DNA from: an uncultured Chitinophagaceae bacterium
GTDB taxonomy: Bacteria; Bacteroidota; Bacteroidia; Chitinophagales; Chitinophagaceae
Assembly: GCA_903895845.1 (NCBI GenBank)
Contig: CAITVK010000053.1
Coordinates: 62,001-126,000, forward strand
Length of the DNA stretch: 64,000 nucleotides
Reading direction: 5' to 3'
Part shown: piece after piece, positions 5,258-63,490 of the stretch
How positions within the stretch are numbered: the stretch's first letter is position 1
Layout: the number at the start of each line of letters is the position of its first letter
Position numbers and translations under genes: made by a program
Notes under the pieces: model-generated
Databases searched by the model: none
Told to the model about the DNA's origin: nothing
Seen by the model: only the letters and a program-made list of their open reading frames with translations

Positions 5258-6553
<1,296 letters not shown>

Positions 6554-6728
6554 TCATGTATTCTTTGTCGGTTTTTTCTATAGCTATTTTTGGGCGAGAC
6601 AATTTATGTTGCCTTAAAAAACTGATAGGTGTCTTGCAATGACTCGATTTGGGATAGTTTAAGAAGAGGTGTATCTAGTCATAATCTGTTCAAACACAAC
6701 AGTACTCTGCCATTGGACTGTCATGAAT

Positions 6729-6938
6729 CAGGTAAATGGAAGAAAGATTCACGTGGGGCGGCACTTTTCGCACTTGAGTGAGACACTGCCGCACGTGAAT
6801 AAATCATTTTCTCACGTGGGTGAACGCCCGACCCACGTGAGTTAGTCGCTCACCCACGTGCAAGAATCGCTCACTCACCTGCGTGACCGCCTGCCTCACC
6901 TGCGGGAGACTCCGACTCAGGTGCGGAAATTGGGCTCA
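6729..6938. repeat. 21-bp phased palindrome array A (CACGTG type)
   Basis: CACNTG-type hexamers begin at 6750, 6771, 6792, 6813, 6834, 6855, 6876, 6897 and 6918, every step exactly 21 bp; a degenerate CAGGTA at 6729 is also in phase. Five are perfect CACGTG, the others CACTTG, CACCTG (twice) and CAGGTG. Many are flanked by CTCAC on the left and GTGAG-like bases on the right, so each unit is a larger imperfect palindrome. The stretch is clearly GC-richer than its surroundings. Between units the sequence varies, stops occur in the frames checked, and no gene is evident. It sits between the 3' end of the GH28 gene and the 5' end of spt. Bases 6545-6728 show nothing recognisable. Confidence 0.93.
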
Positions 6939-7032: not shown

Positions 7033-8535
7033 TTATTCATTGATGTGGATTCCCTTGCAGCCATTGGTTTTGAAGGGATTTGCCTCCCCCGAATTGATTT
7101 TTACACCCTTTAGAAAAATGTCTTCCGACTCCTTGCACTCAAAGCCACTGCCAGAAGAGATAGATATTTTTTCGAAATAAAGGTGATTAATCTTTTTCTC
7201 TGGAAGTCCGGACAAAACAAATGCTTTACTTGCCCCATCACAGGTAATGTTTTTGCAAAAGAAGTTGGTAAACTCAGGCACTTTATCAGATTCTGTGGGC
7301 ATAGCAGCACTTTTGTCCTTACCCGATTCCAGATTTAAATAATCAGTTGTAAAAGAAAATGCCTCACCAGCAATATCTTTCATTTTTACATCTTGGATAT
7401 AGATGTTGTGTACCAAACCACCCACTCCCGAATTACTTTTCACCCTCACCCCAATGTCACTTCCATTGAACAAGCAGTTTGTTACAAAAATATTGTTCAT
7501 TCCACCATCCGTATTGCTTCCAATCACAAAACCACCATGCGCACGAAGTACTGTACACTCGGCAATCACTATGTTTTCTAGGTTTGCCGAAGTAGGGGTC
7601 TCCGTTTTTCCACTAGATTTCATACAGATACCATCATCGCCAACACTCACGGTACTCTGGTAAATCACCACATTTTTACAGGCACTAATGTCTATTCCGT
7701 CGCCATTTTGTGCATTCCAGTCATTGTAAACATTTATTTTATTCAGCGTAAGATCAGTACAATTATTAGGATAAAAAACAAACTTAGGAGAGTTTTTAAA
7801 AGTAACACCCTCCAGCAATATGTTTTTGCACCTGATAAAATAGACCATATATGGCCTGAGAAAATCGCGGGCAGGAATAAAATCCGCTGCTGTAAGATCC
7901 GATTTGTTTTTTAGTGTTTTCAGGTATGAATCCCCTTGAGAAGCTTCGAAGCTAGGCCACCATATTTTTCCATCATTGGCAACAACACCACCGCTCGCTT
8001 TCAGTGCTTCCCATTGGTTTTTATCAACCTTACTCTTTTTTACTTCCCTCCAACTATCACCGCCCCCATCAAAAACACCCTCACCGGTAATTGCAAAGTT
8101 CTTGGCTTCATACGCATAGATAGGCGACTGAGTAACAAATTTATTGCCTTTGTCGCCGGGGCGTATCATCGGGTATTGTGAGTGGTCTTTGGTAAAAAAT
8201 ATTTCAGCCCCCTTTGCAGCATACAAGTTAACGTCACTTTTCATTTCAATTGGCCCCGTCAACCAGATTCCTTGCGGAATTACCACGGTTCCACCGCCCG
8301 CAGCCGAGCAGGCCTCAATTGCACTATTGATAGCTTTTGTATTTAAGAAATTATTTTTTGCCTTTGCCCCAAAATCTACAATCGATAACTTCTTATCAGG
8401 AAAAGTAGTAGCCGTTATTGGCTCCATCTTAAATGGTGCATTGGCAACGTAATAAGGAATGCCCCTGTTCTGTGAAAACAAATGGCTAGACGCTAACAAA
8501 GAGAGAGCAACAAAAAGAAATACACTATTTTTCAT
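7033..8535 (-). CDS. Secreted glycoside hydrolase family 28 (polygalacturonase-like)
   Basis: A 500-residue parallel beta-helix enzyme with an N-terminal signal peptide (about 1-21). It keeps the GH28 signature motifs in order: NGDGID (NTD motif), GDDGICMKS with the catalytic aspartate pair, AHGGFVIGS (the GHG-type motif) and RVKSN (RIK-type motif). The N-terminal DFGAKAKNNFLNTKAINSAI segment is the usual pectate-lyase-superfamily entry. It should hydrolyse galacturonan or a related pectic linkage in the periplasm or outside the cell. The divergent neighbour at 8805 and the PIG-L and symporter genes suggest a small sugar-use locus, though no SusC/SusD pair is visible. Confidence 0.93.
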   Translation of the reverse strand: MKNSVFLFVALSLLASSHLFSQNRGIPYYVANAPFKMEPITATTFPDKKLSIVDFGAKAKNNFLNTKAINSAIEACSAAGGGTVVIPQGIWLTGPIEMKSDVNLYAAKGAEIFFTKDHSQYPMIRPGDKGNKFVTQSPIYAYEAKNFAITGEGVFDGGGDSWREVKKSKVDKNQWEALKASGGVVANDGKIWWPSFEASQGDSYLKTLKNKSDLTAADFIPARDFLRPYMVYFIRCKNILLEGVTFKNSPKFVFYPNNCTDLTLNKINVYNDWNAQNGDGIDISACKNVVIYQSTVSVGDDGICMKSSGKTETPTSANLENIVIAECTVLRAHGGFVIGSNTDGGMNNIFVTNCLFNGSDIGVRVKSNSGVGGLVHNIYIQDVKMKDIAGEAFSFTTDYLNLESGKDKSAAMPTESDKVPEFTNFFCKNITCDGASKAFVLSGLPEKKINHLYFEKISISSGSGFECKESEDIFLKGVKINSGEANPFKTNGCKGIHINE

Positions 8536-23460: not shown

Positions 23461-23577
23461 ACAATTGATAATTATTAATTGATAATGGATAATTGACAGT
23501 TGATAATGATACTCTCTGAATGTCTTTACTTCAATACCTATCTTAATTATCAATTATTAAGTATCAATTAATCATTA
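23461..23577. repeat. AT-rich self-complementary spacer
   Basis: Words such as TTGATAATTATTAATTGATAA on one side and TTAATTATCAATTATTAAG on the other form an interrupted inverted repeat. The stop codon of the upstream gene (23568) lies inside it. Confidence 0.6.
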
Positions 23578-25718: not shown

Positions 25719-25738
25719 ATTTATTATTATTTAGAATG

Positions 25739-25752
25739 CAAATGTATATTTG
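25739..25752. promoter_or_regulatory. Overlapping divergent -7 elements between ahcY and the Lrp regulator
   Basis: CAAATGTATATTTG: read on the reverse strand it gives TACATTTG (25746-25739), 20 bp before the ahcY start; read forward it gives TATATTTG (25745-25752). The two share the central TA, and the 14-mer is nearly palindromic. Around it lie four related TATTT(G)TAGAAT words (about 25730, 25747, 25780, 25810) that could be regulator sites. Confidence 0.45.
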
Positions 25753-25836
25753 TAGAACAAAATAATATGTTATTGTTATTATTTAGAATAAAATTATACT
25801 ATTTTTCTTATTTGTAGAATATAAATACATTATTAG

Positions 25837-26334
25837 ATGGCAAAAGCACTTGCAAAAGAACAAACAACTACGGAGAATATAAGCATCGATGATAAAGACC
25901 TGGCAATATTGAGTCTATTGCAGCGGAATGCAAAGATGACGGTAAAGGAAATTGCGGATTCGGTGCATCTAAGCACGACTCCGGTGCATGAACGCATTAA
26001 AAGGATGGAGCAAAATGGGGTAATTAAACAATATGCCACCCTTGTTGACCATGCAAAAGTTAAAAAAGGATTAATGGTTATCTGTTATGTGTCTTTGAGG
26101 CAACATGATAAGGTGGAAGGAGCAAAATTTATTCAGCGGATACAGGAAATGAGTGAAGTAATTGAGTGTTATAACATCTCTGGAGAGTTCGATTTTATGC
26201 TAAAAGTAGTTGCCGCAGATATGGACGACTATTATCACTTTCATGTAAATAAATTGAGTCAAGCAGAAAACATAGGGCACGTGCAAAGCGTATTCGTGAT
26301 GGGAATAATCAAGCAGACGCACGTGGTCATTTAA
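25837..26334 (+). CDS. Lrp/AsnC family transcriptional regulator
   Basis: 165 residues: N-terminal winged helix (DKDLAILSLLQRNAKMTVKEIADSVHLSTTPVHERIKRMEQNGVIKQY) and C-terminal ligand-binding RAM domain (VICYVSLRQ, then ECYNISGEFDFMLKV). The family senses amino acids or related metabolites. Its divergent partner ahcY suggests a methionine/homocysteine link, which is inference. Confidence 0.93.
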   Translation: MAKALAKEQTTTENISIDDKDLAILSLLQRNAKMTVKEIADSVHLSTTPVHERIKRMEQNGVIKQYATLVDHAKVKKGLMVICYVSLRQHDKVEGAKFIQRIQEMSEVIECYNISGEFDFMLKVVAADMDDYYHFHVNKLSQAENIGHVQSVFVMGIIKQTHVVI

Positions 26335-26337
26335 AAT

Positions 26338-26442
26338 ATGAACTATGAAATATAAAATATGAATTAAAAAGAAAGCCCATAAACAATCTGTTTATGGGCT
26401 TTAATCTTTTACCAACTAATGAACTCTTATTTCATAGTTCAT
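26338..26442. terminator. Nested bidirectional terminator hairpin
   Basis: Inner perfect 14-bp stem (26372-26385 with 26389-26402, AAAGCCCATAAACA) with a 3-nt loop and T-run; outer perfect 15-bp inverted repeat ATGAACTATGAAATA (26338-26352 with 26428-26442). Lies between the convergent Lrp and phosphorylase genes. Confidence 0.8.
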
Positions 26443-28381: not shown

Positions 28382-28879
28382 TTATTGTCTGCAAAGCCGC
28401 CGTATCAATGTTTTATGCGCTGGATAGTCCTCAGTTAACTCAGTAGCTTTTGCCAACTCGAAGTCTTTAAAATCAAATCCTTGTGAGACAGTGCATCCAA
28501 CAAAACAAAAGTTACTTTCTGGGGCGGGTTCACTAGCAAACCAGCAATCAGCAGGTACAACAGCCTGAAAAACTTCACCATTATTGCTATTATTGCCCAA
28601 CTTAATCAGGTCTAATTGACCATTTTTGTCAATTACATAGATTAATAGTGCCTGTCCTGTATAAAAGTGCCAGCATTCATCGCTTTTTATCCTGTGAAAA
28701 GCCGAAAAATTGCCTTTTTCCAACAAAAAATAGATGGCAGTGCTGCTATTTCTGTCCCCATCAAAACCAATTGGCAATGATTGCTTGTTTATTATTAAAT
28801 TACTCCTGTAATTCTCTTTATAAAATCCGCCTTCGGGGTGGGGGAGTAGCTGAAATTGGGCAACTAAGTCACTAATCAT
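28382..28879 (-). CDS. Cupin domain protein (DUF985 type)
   Basis: 165 residues: starts with FQLLPHPEGGFYKENYRS and continues with a cupin barrel: TAIYFLLEKGNFSAFHRIKSDECWHFYTG has the metal-ligand-like histidines and glutamate, and VPADCWFASEPAPESNFCFVGCTVSQGF is the second cupin half. This family is widespread and uncharacterised; an isomerase or metal-binding role is possible. The spacer after it (28880-29030) contains short inverted AT words. Confidence 0.85.
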   Translation of the reverse strand: MISDLVAQFQLLPHPEGGFYKENYRSNLIINKQSLPIGFDGDRNSSTAIYFLLEKGNFSAFHRIKSDECWHFYTGQALLIYVIDKNGQLDLIKLGNNSNNGEVFQAVVPADCWFASEPAPESNFCFVGCTVSQGFDFKDFELAKATELTEDYPAHKTLIRRLCRQ

Positions 28880-29030
28880 GAATTATCAATTATGAATTGT
28901 CAGTTATGCATGCTGAGATATGAAAAATAATGGAGTCATAATGAGAGATAGGTTTTAAACTGATAATAATTTATTGCGTTTGGGAATACTTTTATCCTTT
29001 ATAACTCATCATTCATAACTCACAACCATA

Positions 29031-29996
29031 TTAAAGCACCAAAGCGCTTGCTCCTAATATCGCCGCGTCCGATTCTTTTAGGTTACTGAATACCAATTGT
29101 ACCTTATTTTTAAACACTTGATACAAATTCTTTTCCATTGCTTCCTTCGTGGGGTTCATGATGTAGCTTCCGGCTTTGGTTAATCCTCCAAAAAGAATGA
29201 TTGCTTGAGGCGATGAGAACATTACGAAGTTGGCCAATGCTTCTCCTAGTATTTCTCCTGTAAAATCAAATACTTTTTTAGCAATTTCATCTCCTTTCAA
29301 GGCACAATCATACACTGTTTCGCTAGTAATTTCGTCTGCATGAAAATTCCGTAACAAACTTTCCTTTTCCGGATGATTTTCTAAAAACTCTATTGCAGTT
29401 TGCCTCACACCAGTTGCAGAAGCATACACTTCCAGGCAACCTCTGCTACCAGTAAGCTTGTGAAGGCGACCATTGTGCCGAACAATGGTATGTCCTAGTT
29501 CACCTGCAAAACCATCATTGCCAACAACCATCTTTCCGTCAATCACAATGCCACTTCCCACGCCTGTTCCAAGAGTGATTGTAATAAAATGCTTCATTCC
29601 TTTTGCTGCACCATACATCATTTCGCCCATTGCGGCTGCATTTGCATCGTTTGTGAGCAATGCTTTAAGCCCAAACTTCTCCGTTAACAGGTGTGCAATC
29701 GGTACAATCCCTTTCCAATGCAAGTTTGCTGCATATTCAATGTTTCCGGTGTACACATTACCATTTGGCGCCCCCATTCCAATACCAATAAACTCTTTTA
29801 CACCCCCAACTTTATCAATCATAGGCTGTAACTTACTGTGTAGTTCCTCAATAAAGAAGTCAACAGGCTTTTCGCTCGCAGTTGGTATCCTATCCTGAAA
29901 AAGTATATTGCCTTCTCTGTCAACGATGCCAAATTTTGTGCTGGTGCCGCCCAAATCTATTCCAACGGCAAATTTAGGGATTGAATTATTACTCAT
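29031..29996 (-). CDS. ROK family sugar kinase (glucokinase-like)
   Basis: 321 residues from ATG 29996; the longer frame to 30086 lacks similarity. ATP-grasping GIDLGGTSTKFGIVD, sugar-site LTNDANAAAMGEMMYG and LGTGVGSGIVIDG are intact, so it should phosphorylate glucose or a related hexose. The usual zinc signature CxCGxxGCxE is partly lost: the sequence reads LHKLTGSRGCLEV, retaining only the last cysteine and the GELGH histidine. Confidence 0.88.
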   Translation of the reverse strand: MSNNSIPKFAVGIDLGGTSTKFGIVDREGNILFQDRIPTASEKPVDFFIEELHSKLQPMIDKVGGVKEFIGIGMGAPNGNVYTGNIEYAANLHWKGIVPIAHLLTEKFGLKALLTNDANAAAMGEMMYGAAKGMKHFITITLGTGVGSGIVIDGKMVVGNDGFAGELGHTIVRHNGRLHKLTGSRGCLEVYASATGVRQTAIEFLENHPEKESLLRNFHADEITSETVYDCALKGDEIAKKVFDFTGEILGEALANFVMFSSPQAIILFGGLTKAGSYIMNPTKEAMEKNLYQVFKNKVQLVFSNLKESDAAILGASALVL

Positions 29997-30186
29997 TATA
30001 TTGTTTTTAGCTGTCAAATATAAATAGGTAATAGTAGTATAATAACAATTTGTTTGAGAATAAATGAATGTGTATATGACACACACTCGATAGCAAGTAA
30101 ATTAGTTGCTATTAAGGAGTTTATATGCCTACAAAGAGCTTAAAAGAGAGGAATAATGGCTTGATTTAATGTATAATAAGAGAATT

Positions 30187-30375
30187 CTTTTCCCCAAAAA
30201 AGCCAATTTCTATCCAGAATAAAGCTTATTTCATCCGTAAGTAAGTCTTTTTCATCCATAAGTAAGCGTTTTTCACGTGAAAAAGAGTAGCTTTCGGATG
30301 AAAAAGACAAACTTTTGGAAAGATAATTCCCATTTTAATCCTTAATAGAATTCCTTTTTAATGGATTAAGGGAAT
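30187..30375. repeat. 21-bp phased array D (TTTC/ATCC type, centred on CACGTG)
   Basis: T-rich unit starts at 30187, 30208, 30229, 30250, 30271, 30292, 30313, 30334 and 30355, all steps 21 bp. The best units are 30229 and 30250 (TTTCATCCRTAAGTAAG). The array has a dyad: TTTTTCACGTGAAAAA (30269-30284) at its middle, and CTTTTTCATCC (30247-30257) mirrored by GGATGAAAAAG (30296-30306), all with the same centre at 30276.5. The outer units are degenerate. It lies between the ROK gene and the tRNA; stop codons interrupt the frames checked. Confidence 0.8.
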
Positions 30376-52869: not shown

Positions 52870-53058
52870 TTTATATACCTCCGTCTAAGATTTATATATC
52901 TTTTCCCAACTTTTATATATAAATCTCTGGCTTTTATATATCTCCGTCCAAGATTTATATATGTTTTCTCAACTTTTATATATAAATCTCCAGCTTTTAT
53001 ATATCTCCGTCTAAGATTTATATATGTTTATCCAACTTTTATATATAAACGTGAAACT
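52870..53058. repeat. 21-bp phased array C (TTTATATAT type, 63-bp super-period)
   Basis: TTTATATA begins at 52870, 52891, 52912, 52933, 52954, 52975, 52996, 53017 and 53038, always exactly 21 bp apart: nine units in 189 bp. The other 12 bases rotate among three types, CTCCGTCYAAGA, (C/G)TTTTCYCAACT-like and AAATCTCYRGCT, in the order 1-2-3 three times, so it is also a 63-bp repeat in three copies. The third type joins TTTATATATAAA into a perfect palindrome. Frame FIYxxxx stays open across the array but lacks an ATG. Confidence 0.95.
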
Positions 53059-56444: not shown

Positions 56445-57107
56445 ATGGACAAACAAACGGCAGTAATAATTGGCGCAACAGGATTAATTGGAAGTTTATT
56501 GGTAGAAACCCTTCTGAACGACGACGCATTTGAGAAAGTGAGGGTATTGGTGCGACGACCGTACGCCAAACAGCATCCCAAATTAGAAGTATGTGTGGTT
56601 GATTTTGGTAATTTGGAGGATTACAAAAATAAACTAGGCAAGGGCGACAGTATTTTTAGTTGCATTGGCACTACACAGAAGAAAGTGAATGGCGATAAGG
56701 AAGCTTACCGTAAAATAGATTATGACATTGCCGTAAATGCCGCACTGTTGGGAAAAGAAGCAGGCTTTACCGAGTATTTATTGGTTTCTTCTTTGGGGGC
56801 GGATGAAAAAGCTAGTGGCTTCTATTTGAAGCTAAAGGGAGAGATAGAAACAAAGATTGCCTCAATAGGGTTTGTAGGGTTTCACATTTTCAGACCTTCC
56901 TTTTTGTTAGGCAACAGAAATGAAACAAGGATTGGAGAAAGCATTATGAAAGTGGTATTCAAAGGATTATCCAGTTTATTCTTCGACTCCATGACCAAAT
57001 ACAAAGCCATTGAAGCCCAAACAGTTGCAACAGCTATGGCAACCGCTGCAAAAGAAGCATTTGTAGGAAAAAAGATATATTATTATGATGACATGAAGGA
57101 GAGATAG
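56445..57107 (+). CDS. NAD(P)-binding SDR-like protein
   Basis: 220 residues. Atypical SDR with the glycine motif VIIGATGLIGSLLVETLL, RRPYAKQHPK, a SIFSCIGTTQKKVNGDKEAYRKIDYDIAVNAA segment and LVSSLGADEKASGFYLKLKGEIE. It resembles HTATIP2-like oxidoreductases; catalytic YxxxK is replaced by YLKLKGE. Divergent from murB with only 18 bp between start codons. Confidence 0.82.
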   Translation: MDKQTAVIIGATGLIGSLLVETLLNDDAFEKVRVLVRRPYAKQHPKLEVCVVDFGNLEDYKNKLGKGDSIFSCIGTTQKKVNGDKEAYRKIDYDIAVNAALLGKEAGFTEYLLVSSLGADEKASGFYLKLKGEIETKIASIGFVGFHIFRPSFLLGNRNETRIGESIMKVVFKGLSSLFFDSMTKYKAIEAQTVATAMATAAKEAFVGKKIYYYDDMKER

Positions 57108-57213
57108 TAGATAGCAGTTATTAGATATTAGATAGTAGATAGTAGTAACTCACCAAGCTGCTGATTGATATTGCATATTTCTTCACTAATATCTAATAAC
57201 TGCTATCTAATAT
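57108..57213. repeat. Self-complementary AT-rich spacer
   Basis: AGATAGCAGTTATTAGATATTAGATAG on the left and CTAATATCTAATAACTGCTATCTAATATCT on the right are nearly perfect reverse complements around a 40-base centre. Between two convergent genes; a candidate bidirectional terminator and RNA hairpin. Confidence 0.75.
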
Positions 57214-58143
57214 CTATACTTCCACTAAGTCTTTCAAAGCCGTTTCTATTGTTGGGAAGTTAAACTGGAAGCCTAACGCCTTTATCTTGTGGTTGTTTAC
57301 GGTAGCACTCTTTAAGACCTCGATACTCATTTCTCCCAGCATAATCTTTAATATAAAACTAGGCACATGTGCAGAGATGTAAGATTTACCTTTTACTATT
57401 TTAGCTAGGGTAAGCGTTAGTTCTTTATTGGTTACAGGCACAGAAGACACGGCGTTATATGCCCCAGCCATTACTTTATTTTCTATGGCATACGCAAATA
57501 ACCTGCAGAGGTCTTCCACGTGTATCCAACTGATAATTTGTTTGCCATTACCCAATATCGAAGCCAATCCCCACTTCAATGGTTTTAGAAACTCTACCAA
57601 CGCGCCACCGTTATTACTCAATACGATACCAATCCGAAGCTTCACCAATCGTATGCCTAGCTTAGTAACAGGTTCAATGCTTTCCTCCCATTGTTTGCAG
57701 GTATCACCCAGAAACTCCGTATCAGCAACTGCGTCTTCTGTGAATCCCTTTTGCAAACTCTCCTTCGTATCTGCACCATACCAACCGATAGCAGAGGCGT
57801 TTACTACACATTTTACTTTATTAGGGATAGTCTCTAATGCCTTTACAATGGTGGCACCAGCCTTGGTACGACTTTCTACAATCTCTTTTTTACGTTCAAC
57901 ACTCCATCGTTTATCAGCTACCCCCGCACCAGCAAGATTAATGATGTAATCTGCCTTTTGGATAGCCTCCACATCTATGGTTTGTGCCTCCACATCCCAC
58001 AAAGCATAACTGATGCTTGCATGACGCCTTGCCATTACCTTTTTGCGACTAACTATCAATACATTATATCCTTTCACCACCAATAACTCTGTCAGATGCT
58101 TCCCAACCATGCCTGTACCGCCCGTAATCAAAACTGTTTCCAT
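57214..58143 (-). CDS. TIGR01777-type SDR protein (YfcH-like)
   Basis: 309 residues: VLITGGTGMVGKHLTELL start, ADYIINLAGAGVADKRWSVERKKEIVESR and a NASAIGWYGA segment, KLRIGIVLSNNGGALVEFLKPLKWGLASILGNGKQIISWIHVEDLCRL. Atypical SDR family of unknown substrate, related to SulA-like YfcH. The unusual NAGAGVADKRW-like segment is the family mark. Confidence 0.88.
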   Translation of the reverse strand: METVLITGGTGMVGKHLTELLVVKGYNVLIVSRKKVMARRHASISYALWDVEAQTIDVEAIQKADYIINLAGAGVADKRWSVERKKEIVESRTKAGATIVKALETIPNKVKCVVNASAIGWYGADTKESLQKGFTEDAVADTEFLGDTCKQWEESIEPVTKLGIRLVKLRIGIVLSNNGGALVEFLKPLKWGLASILGNGKQIISWIHVEDLCRLFAYAIENKVMAGAYNAVSSVPVTNKELTLTLAKIVKGKSYISAHVPSFILKIMLGEMSIEVLKSATVNNHKIKALGFQFNFPTIETALKDLVEV

Positions 58144-60090: not shown

Positions 60091-60196
60091 TATTTTTCTA
60101 TTTTAAATTTTGAGTTTTAAGTTTTAAATTGATCAAGGAGCAAATCTAATGGTAAGCTCTTATCCAAAATTTAAAACTTAAAATTCAAAATAACTC
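60091..60196. repeat. Self-complementary AT-rich spacer
   Basis: TTTTAAATTTTGAGTTTTAAG on one side and AAATTTAAAACTTAAAATTC on the other pair across a 45-base centre. Same vocabulary as the spacers at 53560 and 63401. Confidence 0.65.
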
Positions 60197-63400: not shown

Positions 63401-63490
63401 CTATATTATTTTAAATTTTAAGTTTTGAATTTTGAATTAAGACTGTGTGTAATTAATTCAAAATTTAGAATACAAAATTCAACACAAACA
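63401..63490. repeat. Self-complementary AT-rich spacer
   Basis: TTTTAAGTTTTGAATTTTGAATTAA on the left and TTAATTCAAAATTTAGAATACAAAATTC on the right are near reverse complements. Probable terminator-like hairpin between nitrilase and preT. Confidence 0.65.

Follow-up and report, generated by a model that had tools for sequence, protein, structure and literature searches.

An array of CACGTG-type palindromes that recur every 21 bp lies between two genes of an uncultured Chitinophagaceae bacterium, and it raises the question whether such a run of sites serves one of its neighbours or belongs to something more widespread on the chromosome. The window, i.e. the whole stretch of 64,000 nucleotides that was analysed, sits in contig C53 of the source genome (G000), a 4.0-Mb draft in 138 contigs. 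The array, here called array A, and its flanking genes are arranged as follows:

5258-6538, minus strand: PLP-dependent aminotransferase (Aminotran_1_2), named spt in the sequence-only reading; flanks array A
6722-6931, no strand: array A, ten 21-bp units with the core CANNTG; family consensus TCA-NN-TGA
6729: degenerate tenth hexamer of array A, CAGGTA
6750-6923, no strand: nine core hexamers of array A in 21-bp steps, at 6750, 6771, 6792, 6813, 6834, 6855, 6876, 6897 and 6918
7033-8535, minus strand: glycosyl hydrolase family 28 (GH28) gene; flanks array A

Among the matches listed, the closest named records to the spt protein were uncultured Chitinophagaceae MAGs.

Array A and the genes beside it

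Read from 6750 + 21n (n = 0 to 8), the hexamers of array A are CACGTG, CACTTG, CACGTG, CACGTG, CACGTG, CACGTG, CACCTG, CACCTG and CAGGTG. Nine hexamers in phase deviate from CACGTG by no more than one base, versus three at most in 2000 dinucleotide shuffles, and the best-lag score of the region (9.0) compares with a maximum of 3.5 in 1000 shuffles. The CACGTG-type array at 21-bp steps that the sequence-only reading had described is thus confirmed, with ten units, far above shuffles. Its tally was right for the five perfect hexamers, but the other four are all one base off and none is two off, a distance seen at the tenth hexamer at 6729. The GC-richness that it had noted was also observed, as the 210 bp of array A have a GC content of 55% versus 36% and 41% in the two flanks. 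The claimed palindromes of about 18 bp, however, are a property of the consensus only: the longest contiguous perfect palindrome around the core dyad of any unit is 6 bp, and extra symmetric matches occur at positions ±5 and ±8 of the dyad, each in 6 of the 9 CANNTG units. That the array is no plain tandem duplication and that its spacers vary held true, but the spacers also partly repeat. Self-identity was 103/189 at lag 21, 90/168 at lag 42 and reached its top value, 87/147, at lag 63, so that duplication of a higher order is present as well.

The sequence-only reading implied a CACGTG-type operator array for a dedicated regulator of spt or its neighbour, at a position that relatives would share. 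The phased palindromes indeed sit upstream of spt, and the core is more conserved than the spacers (see below). However, no array was found at any of the ten loci of relatives (L004-L013, out of 80 matches listed) in up to 700 bp inspected upstream of spt. This comparison includes five close relatives in which spt is at least 84% identical, and two loci (L006 and L010) that gave only 465 and 214 bp; the gene order upstream of spt has also changed in those relatives. Where the 21-bp spacing is present in relatives, it occurs without a preference for CACGTG, and what was found is largely what that reading had itself named as speaking against it.

CANNTG arrays related to array A are located on four other contigs of the source genome (C102, locus L234; C48, L235; C55, L236; C11, L237) and in the related genome G001 (L239), with flanks that differ as judged by eye. 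The central two bases are free in this family (TCA-NN-TGA), and the central CG is not conserved. The genes beside the family are the spt aminotransferase and those for GH28, a diacylglycerol kinase, GH88, a heparinase-like and a HemN-like protein, with four of ten having no Pfam match. Since these genes are mutually unrelated, the family was rejected as a regulon, and an operator dedicated to spt or its neighbour is considered a very remote prospect. The arrays warn against taking CACGTG-like motifs for regulons in this genus.

A genus-wide class of 21-bp intergenic arrays

Self-comparison of the window revealed three further intergenic arrays of period 21, with motifs unlike that of array A:

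30211-30315, no strand: second array with a 21-bp step, upstream of the gene at 29031-30086; core TTTTTCATCC, present in either orientation, and a central TTTTTCACGTGAAAAA
42106-42273, no strand: third array with a 21-bp step; unit GGACAATGAACAACCCCGAAC, not palindromic
52879-53058, no strand: fourth array with a 21-bp step; core TTTATATAT

AT-rich heptamer (7-bp) arrays were also observed in the window, at 23463-23570, 26334-26363, 28874-28908, 57102-57216, 60100-60191 and 63408-63438, together with an AT-rich 31-bp tandem repeat between genes at 25720-25834, which stands outside the 21-bp class. Heptamer arrays elsewhere in G000 often consist of direct and then inverted copies. At lag 7, G000 gave 19 arrays over 699 kb, G006 gave 11 over 466 kb and G007 gave 5 over 100 kb, whereas other genera of the family gave 4 (367 kb) and other families 1 (262 kb).

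A scan of lags 12-89 over 370,633 bp of G000 (the window and 17 further stretches; L119-L121, contigs that are masked throughout and read all N, were excluded there and later) identified 31 arrays. Their smallest lag was 21 in 19, 42 in four, 41 in four, and 20, 22, 14 and 36 in one each, so that 29 of the 31 had a smallest period of 20, 21, 22, 41 or 42. In 697 kb of known G000 sequence, 59 arrays were found at 13 lags of the 21-family versus 2 at 13 control lags (16-48), and in 386 kb of G006 the corresponding numbers were 37 and 2. The G000 count over the same 697 kb varies with the coding filter, from 59 in total to 53 non-coding arrays by the first filter and 56 by the revised one, which required at least 240 nt of ORF outside the array and removed 3 of the 59. 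Extrapolated from these 56, this freshwater bacterium would carry ~320 intergenic arrays per genome; that the period returns across the genome with other motifs was no part of the sequence-only reading. The 697 kb are ~17% of G000, and the other genomes of the genus were sampled in parts only. Of the larger contigs in the G000 sample, C53 holds the window and C48, C55, C102, C11 and C93 were taken for array A relatives; the density may be slightly high because contigs were picked for such matches.

The 21-bp class was also identified in samples from six more species of the genus (G004, G006, G007, G010, G011 and, with 22- and 41-bp types, G012) and at loci of G001, G002 and G003. Outside the genus, five genera of the same family (13 stretches, 260 kb) yielded none and a single 15-bp repeat, and a further 20 genera (369 kb) gave two hits only, a heptamer repeat and a repeat that falls within an ORF; a clear 21-bp-class array was thus absent from the 629 kb of these 25 genera. 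Array A is therefore one of a genus-wide class of 21-bp intergenic satellites, many of them with dyads. Minisatellites of the intergenic kind are head-to-tail units of some 10-60 bp between genes, and the arrays are of this kind. A coding repeat was judged unlikely, as periods of 20, 22 and 41 occur and the ORFs over the arrays are short. Period-41 arrays were observed at L104:2725-2890, L105:15016-15185, L107:13245-13628 and L108:11698-11871; in the one at L107 two different palindromes alternate, with their centres 20.5 bp apart. Several contigs of the genus (L132, L135, L140, L144, L146 and L150) end in a 21-bp array or a few hundred bases from one. Assemblies may therefore break at arrays, which may account for some contig breaks in these metagenome genomes.

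The step is shared, and the sequences are largely private. When 92 arrays resolved at 21 bp (44 from G000, 32 from G006 and 16 from five other genomes) were compared at a similarity threshold of 0.62, they formed 61 core clusters, of which 48 have a single member. Array A belongs to the largest one, with 12 arrays from G000 and G006; this cluster was built by single linkage, and one or two members may be chance joins. Averaged over 88 arrays, with four of heptamer type set aside, the autocorrelation was about zero at lags 1-65 save 21, 42 and 63, with no sub-period of 7 or 10.5 bp. A heptamer ancestry of the step (3 x 7) is not supported, since a 7- or 14-bp signal is absent inside the 21-bp arrays. 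The arrays have a median of 9 units, a mode of 10 (26 of 92) and a range of 5-30.

A column permutation test found 42 of the 92 arrays to be palindromic at P ≤ 0.05, and 27 of them also at P ≤ 0.01 (16 and 8 of 54 in a smaller first set); the remaining 50 were not significantly so. The 26 arrays with an even dyad vary at their two central bases (0.57), are conserved at positions 2-6 (0.76-0.85) and have lower values in the spacer, and in the 16 with an odd dyad it is the three central bases that vary. About half of the arrays thus have a geometry in which two conserved half-sites of ~5 bp enclose a free centre of 2-3 bases. A phased dimer-binding array is defined by palindromic sites that are set whole helical turns apart, and such sites were found in array A and in the 42 palindromic arrays. 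Dyads that recur at 10.5 bp were discounted as a trivial consequence of period plus dyad. Of 1239 spacer pairs, 167 were similar in direct orientation only and 13 as reverse complements only, the latter against ~2.4 expected from cross-array pairs; this is only a weak signal for a site-specific recombinase that would act on the free central bases and invert spacers.

Turnover, mobile copies and placement

The fate of arrays at orthologous sites was followed in relatives. proC was found in all 13 genomes of the genus, and in seven of them the fetched locus contained both proC and dut. In five of these (G000, G001, G004, G006 and G007) the proC-dut gap holds a 21-bp array, in four different sequences; in G010 and G011 the gap is empty and short (78 and 86 bp). 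The arrays of G004 and G006 have a similarity of 0.98, and the remaining pairs (0.32-0.53) are all below the 99.9% point of shuffled comparisons (0.57), with G006/G007, G004/G007 and G000/G004 exceeding the 95% point. At the L110 site, both genes were present in 11 loci, with 21-bp arrays in six, a heptamer array in G007 and none in four, whose gaps of 48-126 bp (126 bp in G001) are too short for an array. Similarities there were 0.91 for G000/G010, 0.89 for G002/G003, which carry CANNTG-type arrays, and borderline for G010/G006 (0.57) and G004/G006 (0.56). At the L107 site, with both genes in six of eight loci, four had arrays, three of them clearly alike (0.69-0.85) and that of G000 drifted (0.43-0.53), and two did not (G007, 504-bp gap; G008, 37 bp). 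The gap between the 29031 gene and tdk has an array in both readable genomes, G000 and G001, whose similarity of 0.50 (P about 0.007) indicates that they are perhaps distantly related. Upstream of the 42390 gene, the arrays of G000 and G006 are unrelated (0.18) and the neighbourhood has changed.

The samples had 58 orthologous pairs of adjacent genes in common; ten of these had gaps of at least 150 bp in both genomes, and a single gap, proC-dut, had an array in either genome, and there in both. The L110, L107 and other followed sites give no site-sharing rate because they were picked for an array in G000. At the few sites examined, arrays come and go, are replaced and drift in concert at a constant step. 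Some are absent from close relatives (proC-dut in G010; L110 in G001), and therefore no single array is essential. That places can be kept and letters changed in close relatives suggests that layout outweighs motif. The proC-dut gap amounts to a natural experiment (one gap, one period, four arrays) on what a repeated binding platform needs.

The relatives of array A in G006 are informative on the core. Pairs of CTCANNTGAG, searched with a repeat within 1-31 bp, i.e. with steps of 11-41 permitted, are present in 5 of 13 genus genomes, with 83 forward pairs, 69 of them in G006; among the matches listed the step was 21 bp in all but one (24 bp, G010). The G006 copies ride on a MITE-like element of ~707 bp, with terminal inverted repeats of ~24 bp like TTAATTCTACTTTGACAGATTA and an internal 21-bp array:

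L218:1912-2618: example of the MITE-like element in G006, among loci L200-L219

Of the 20 loci fetched, 12 contained the two ends of the element, with lengths of 602-728 that differ mostly by steps of ~21; the remaining eight had diverged, ran into a contig end or belonged to another subtype. In these copies (L210 excluded from the column identities and, on the tail side only, L217), the TCA..TGA columns have an identity of 0.974 on the leader side (13 copies) and 0.988 on the tail side (14 copies), versus 0.807 and 0.730 in the spacer columns and 0.872 in the 200-bp leader flank (14 copies). The identity of the tail flank was 0.775, and some pairs were near 0.4, so that the tail is missing from some copies. 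The higher identity of the core columns (97-99%, against 73-81% in spacers and 87% in the leader flank) supports the claim of the sequence-only reading that constraint lies on the palindromic core, for which it is the chief evidence.

The G006 element, with its inverted-repeat ends, and the related arrays at several unlinked G000 loci would fit arrays that are cargo spread by a mobile element (a MITE or RAYT system). However, a clear inverted-repeat pair was found at only 1 of 44 arrays tested (350 bp per side); the test works, as this single positive is a G006 MITE copy. No terminal inverted repeats were found in the 350 bp on each side of array A, and BLAST matches of its gap to other G000 loci fall inside the array, save two of 17-20 bp. 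G000 has two matches to Y1 transposases (Y1_Tnp, the RAYT domain), and the ~1.5 kb of flank fetched around them contained no 21-bp array in either case. Carriage as mobile cargo is considered highly unlikely as an account of the class.

Among gaps of at least 250 bp, those between codirectional genes had arrays in 50 of 138 cases, those between divergent genes in 24 of 73 and those between convergent genes in 8 of 24, about a third irrespective of orientation. In codirectional gaps, 39 of 55 arrays are closer to the stop of the upstream gene and 16 to the next start (P = 0.003). Compared with a random choice of gaps, the arrays were more evenly spaced on C53 (CV 0.40 versus 0.80, P = 0.0015), on C114 (0.43 versus 0.87, P = 0.002) and on contig C1 of G006 (0.56 versus 0.98, P = 0.003). 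Even spacing was unclear on C2 (P = 0.08) and C6 (P = 0.19) of G006 and absent on C48 (P = 0.37) and C55 (P = 0.51); over the seven contigs the combined P was 9e-6. The first coding filter gave weaker P values (C53 0.015, C114 0.047, C48 0.35, C55 0.26, C1 0.0045, C2 0.088, C6 0.18), and the even spacing is regarded as suggestive. Mean spacing was 8-14 kb per contig, which recalls the supercoiling domains of E. coli.

Candidate roles of the arrays

Several known systems resemble the arrays in part. Plasmid iterons and centromere arrays such as sopC and parC are helix-phased direct repeats that load protein dimers or oligomers, with one sequence per replicon beside its protein gene; the arrays, in contrast, are hundreds of chromosomal sites with differing sequences. 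CRISPR arrays have repeats of ~23-50 bp with non-repeated spacers of similar length, whereas here the whole unit is 21 bp and the spacers of ~9 bp are partly repeated (the 167 direct-only pairs). TIGR-Tas arrays go with a Nop-domain Tas protein in the genome, and this assignment was rejected since G000 gave no match to PF01798, for which 4 of 14 control genomes were positive.

BrickBuilt is a 23-nt minisatellite within a MITE of Porphyromonas gingivalis, one family with 19 copies of 1 to 22.8 units (PMC4596501). The arrays share with it the Bacteroidota host, the intergenic location, predicted long stem-loops and a tandem unit of about two turns in which some columns are conserved and others are not, and BrickBuilt, with its leader and tail that have inverted-repeat ends, is very like the 707-bp element of G006; by contrast, the arrays form dozens of core clusters, have nearly all a 21-bp step, occur in several species and lie mostly outside any detected MITE. 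A minisatellite in a MITE of this type was found in the G006 relatives and not at array A. REP/BIME elements are likewise intergenic, clustered palindromes, species-specific and present at more than 100 per genome, and gyrase and IHF are among the proteins that they reportedly bind (PMC2817692). The REPs of a genome share the sequence of their RAYT transposase and vary in inter-REP length (PMC2817692), whereas the arrays have mostly private cores, a fixed period and, in G000, no RAYT association. One or a few shared palindromes, the mark of REP/BIME, were not found among the 92 arrays. The repeats of Borgs are also many per genome, of independent origin and of fast turnover, with an intergenic array that only one of two related genomes carries; Borg units, however, are perfect, of varied lengths, A-enriched and in 43-65% of arrays inside ORFs (PMC9879509), unlike the diverging units of fixed length and common dyad found here. 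In the open-licence literature, mostly the openings of abstracts, no report was found of sequence-unrelated arrays that share one period in a bacterial genus. A shared period with private sequence is possibly a categorically new principle.

If the arrays acted as folded strands, they might be transcribed 3' UTR stem-loops (REP/BIME-like) or cruciforms that affect termination or mRNA stability. Predicted folds were strong (z ≤ -4.4) in 31 of 59 arrays, or 26 of 54 without five CANNTG loci added by hand, versus 1 of 40 control gaps, and the arrays lie closer to the 3' end of the upstream gene; however, repeated palindromic cores alone can produce such energies, z was above -1 in 15 of the 59 arrays, and convergent gaps are not preferred. 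Two turns of B-DNA are 21 bp and those of A-form RNA about 22, so the period suits DNA. Within units of 19 palindromic arrays no covariation was detected, as the match to the unit's own reverse complement (0.529) compares with 0.547 for that of other units, and a hairpin-like unit order was seen in 2 of 50 arrays at P ≤ 0.05. By base-pair covariation the arrays are thus not structured RNA or hairpin elements, and intra-unit hairpins or one long designed hairpin were rejected despite the strong folds. The lack of covariation and of unit ordering is what a putative dimer-binding DNA site, not an RNA or cruciform element, would predict. A function of this folded kind, with which BIMEs (PMC2817692) and BrickBuilt (PMC4596501) are credited, is distinctly unlikely here.

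The main and serious rival to a series of dimer sites is a neutral or selfish minisatellite, in which a mutational process (slippage or template switching over two helical turns) makes and remakes 21-bp arrays that have no cellular role and that tend to stand behind stop codons since promoters exclude them. The filling of about a third of the longer gaps whatever the gene orientation, the bias of codirectional arrays towards the upstream stop, gain or loss between very close species, higher-order 42/63-bp duplications and sequences mostly private to each locus all speak for it. On the other hand, a core conserved above flank level in dispersed copies, a dyad geometry common to unrelated cores, spacing more even than that of random gaps in all contigs combined and the narrow unit number with its mode of 10 argue against it, and it is taken to be somewhat unlikely.

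The explanation that we prefer, tentatively, is that array A is a member of a genus-specific class of fast-evolving intergenic satellites, each with about ten helix-phased putative dimer-binding sites. The fixed 21-bp step, the dyad geometry, the core constraint without covariation and the unit number of about ten point to it; 61 core clusters in 92 arrays fit one sequence-specific protein badly, and 50 of the 92 are not significantly palindromic. Each 21-bp unit would be the binding site of a protein dimer, and successive dimers, placed on one face of the helix by a step of two turns, would bind cooperatively. A chain of about ten dimers could form a local nucleoprotein structure that acts as a boundary, a roadblock or a supercoil sink. 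With binding shared among ~20 half-sites in each array, the core could drift by concerted evolution provided that the step and dyad stayed. Cores that are private to their arrays speak against a single regulator of the ordinary sequence-specific kind; a candidate binder might read phased dyads with a relaxed sequence demand or be a set of paralogues of different specificity, or selection may act within each array only.

A bolder form of this proposal, which is rather doubtful, is a chromosome-wide satellite system selected for architecture and not for sequence, in which ~300 dyad arrays of about ten units, phased at two turns, tend to even spacing, have their cores rewritten by concerted evolution and keep place and period as landmarks for a dyad-reading protein. 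If true, the arrays would be domain boundaries or supercoil sinks and a bacterial counterpart of the fast-evolving centromere satellites of eukaryotes. The combination of shared architecture and private sequence is unusual, in that selection for spacing and symmetry can here be told apart from selection for letters. If functional, the arrays would offer a way into the question how the domain boundaries of bacterial chromosomes are set; if they are neutral, they would expose a mutational process that measures two helical turns.
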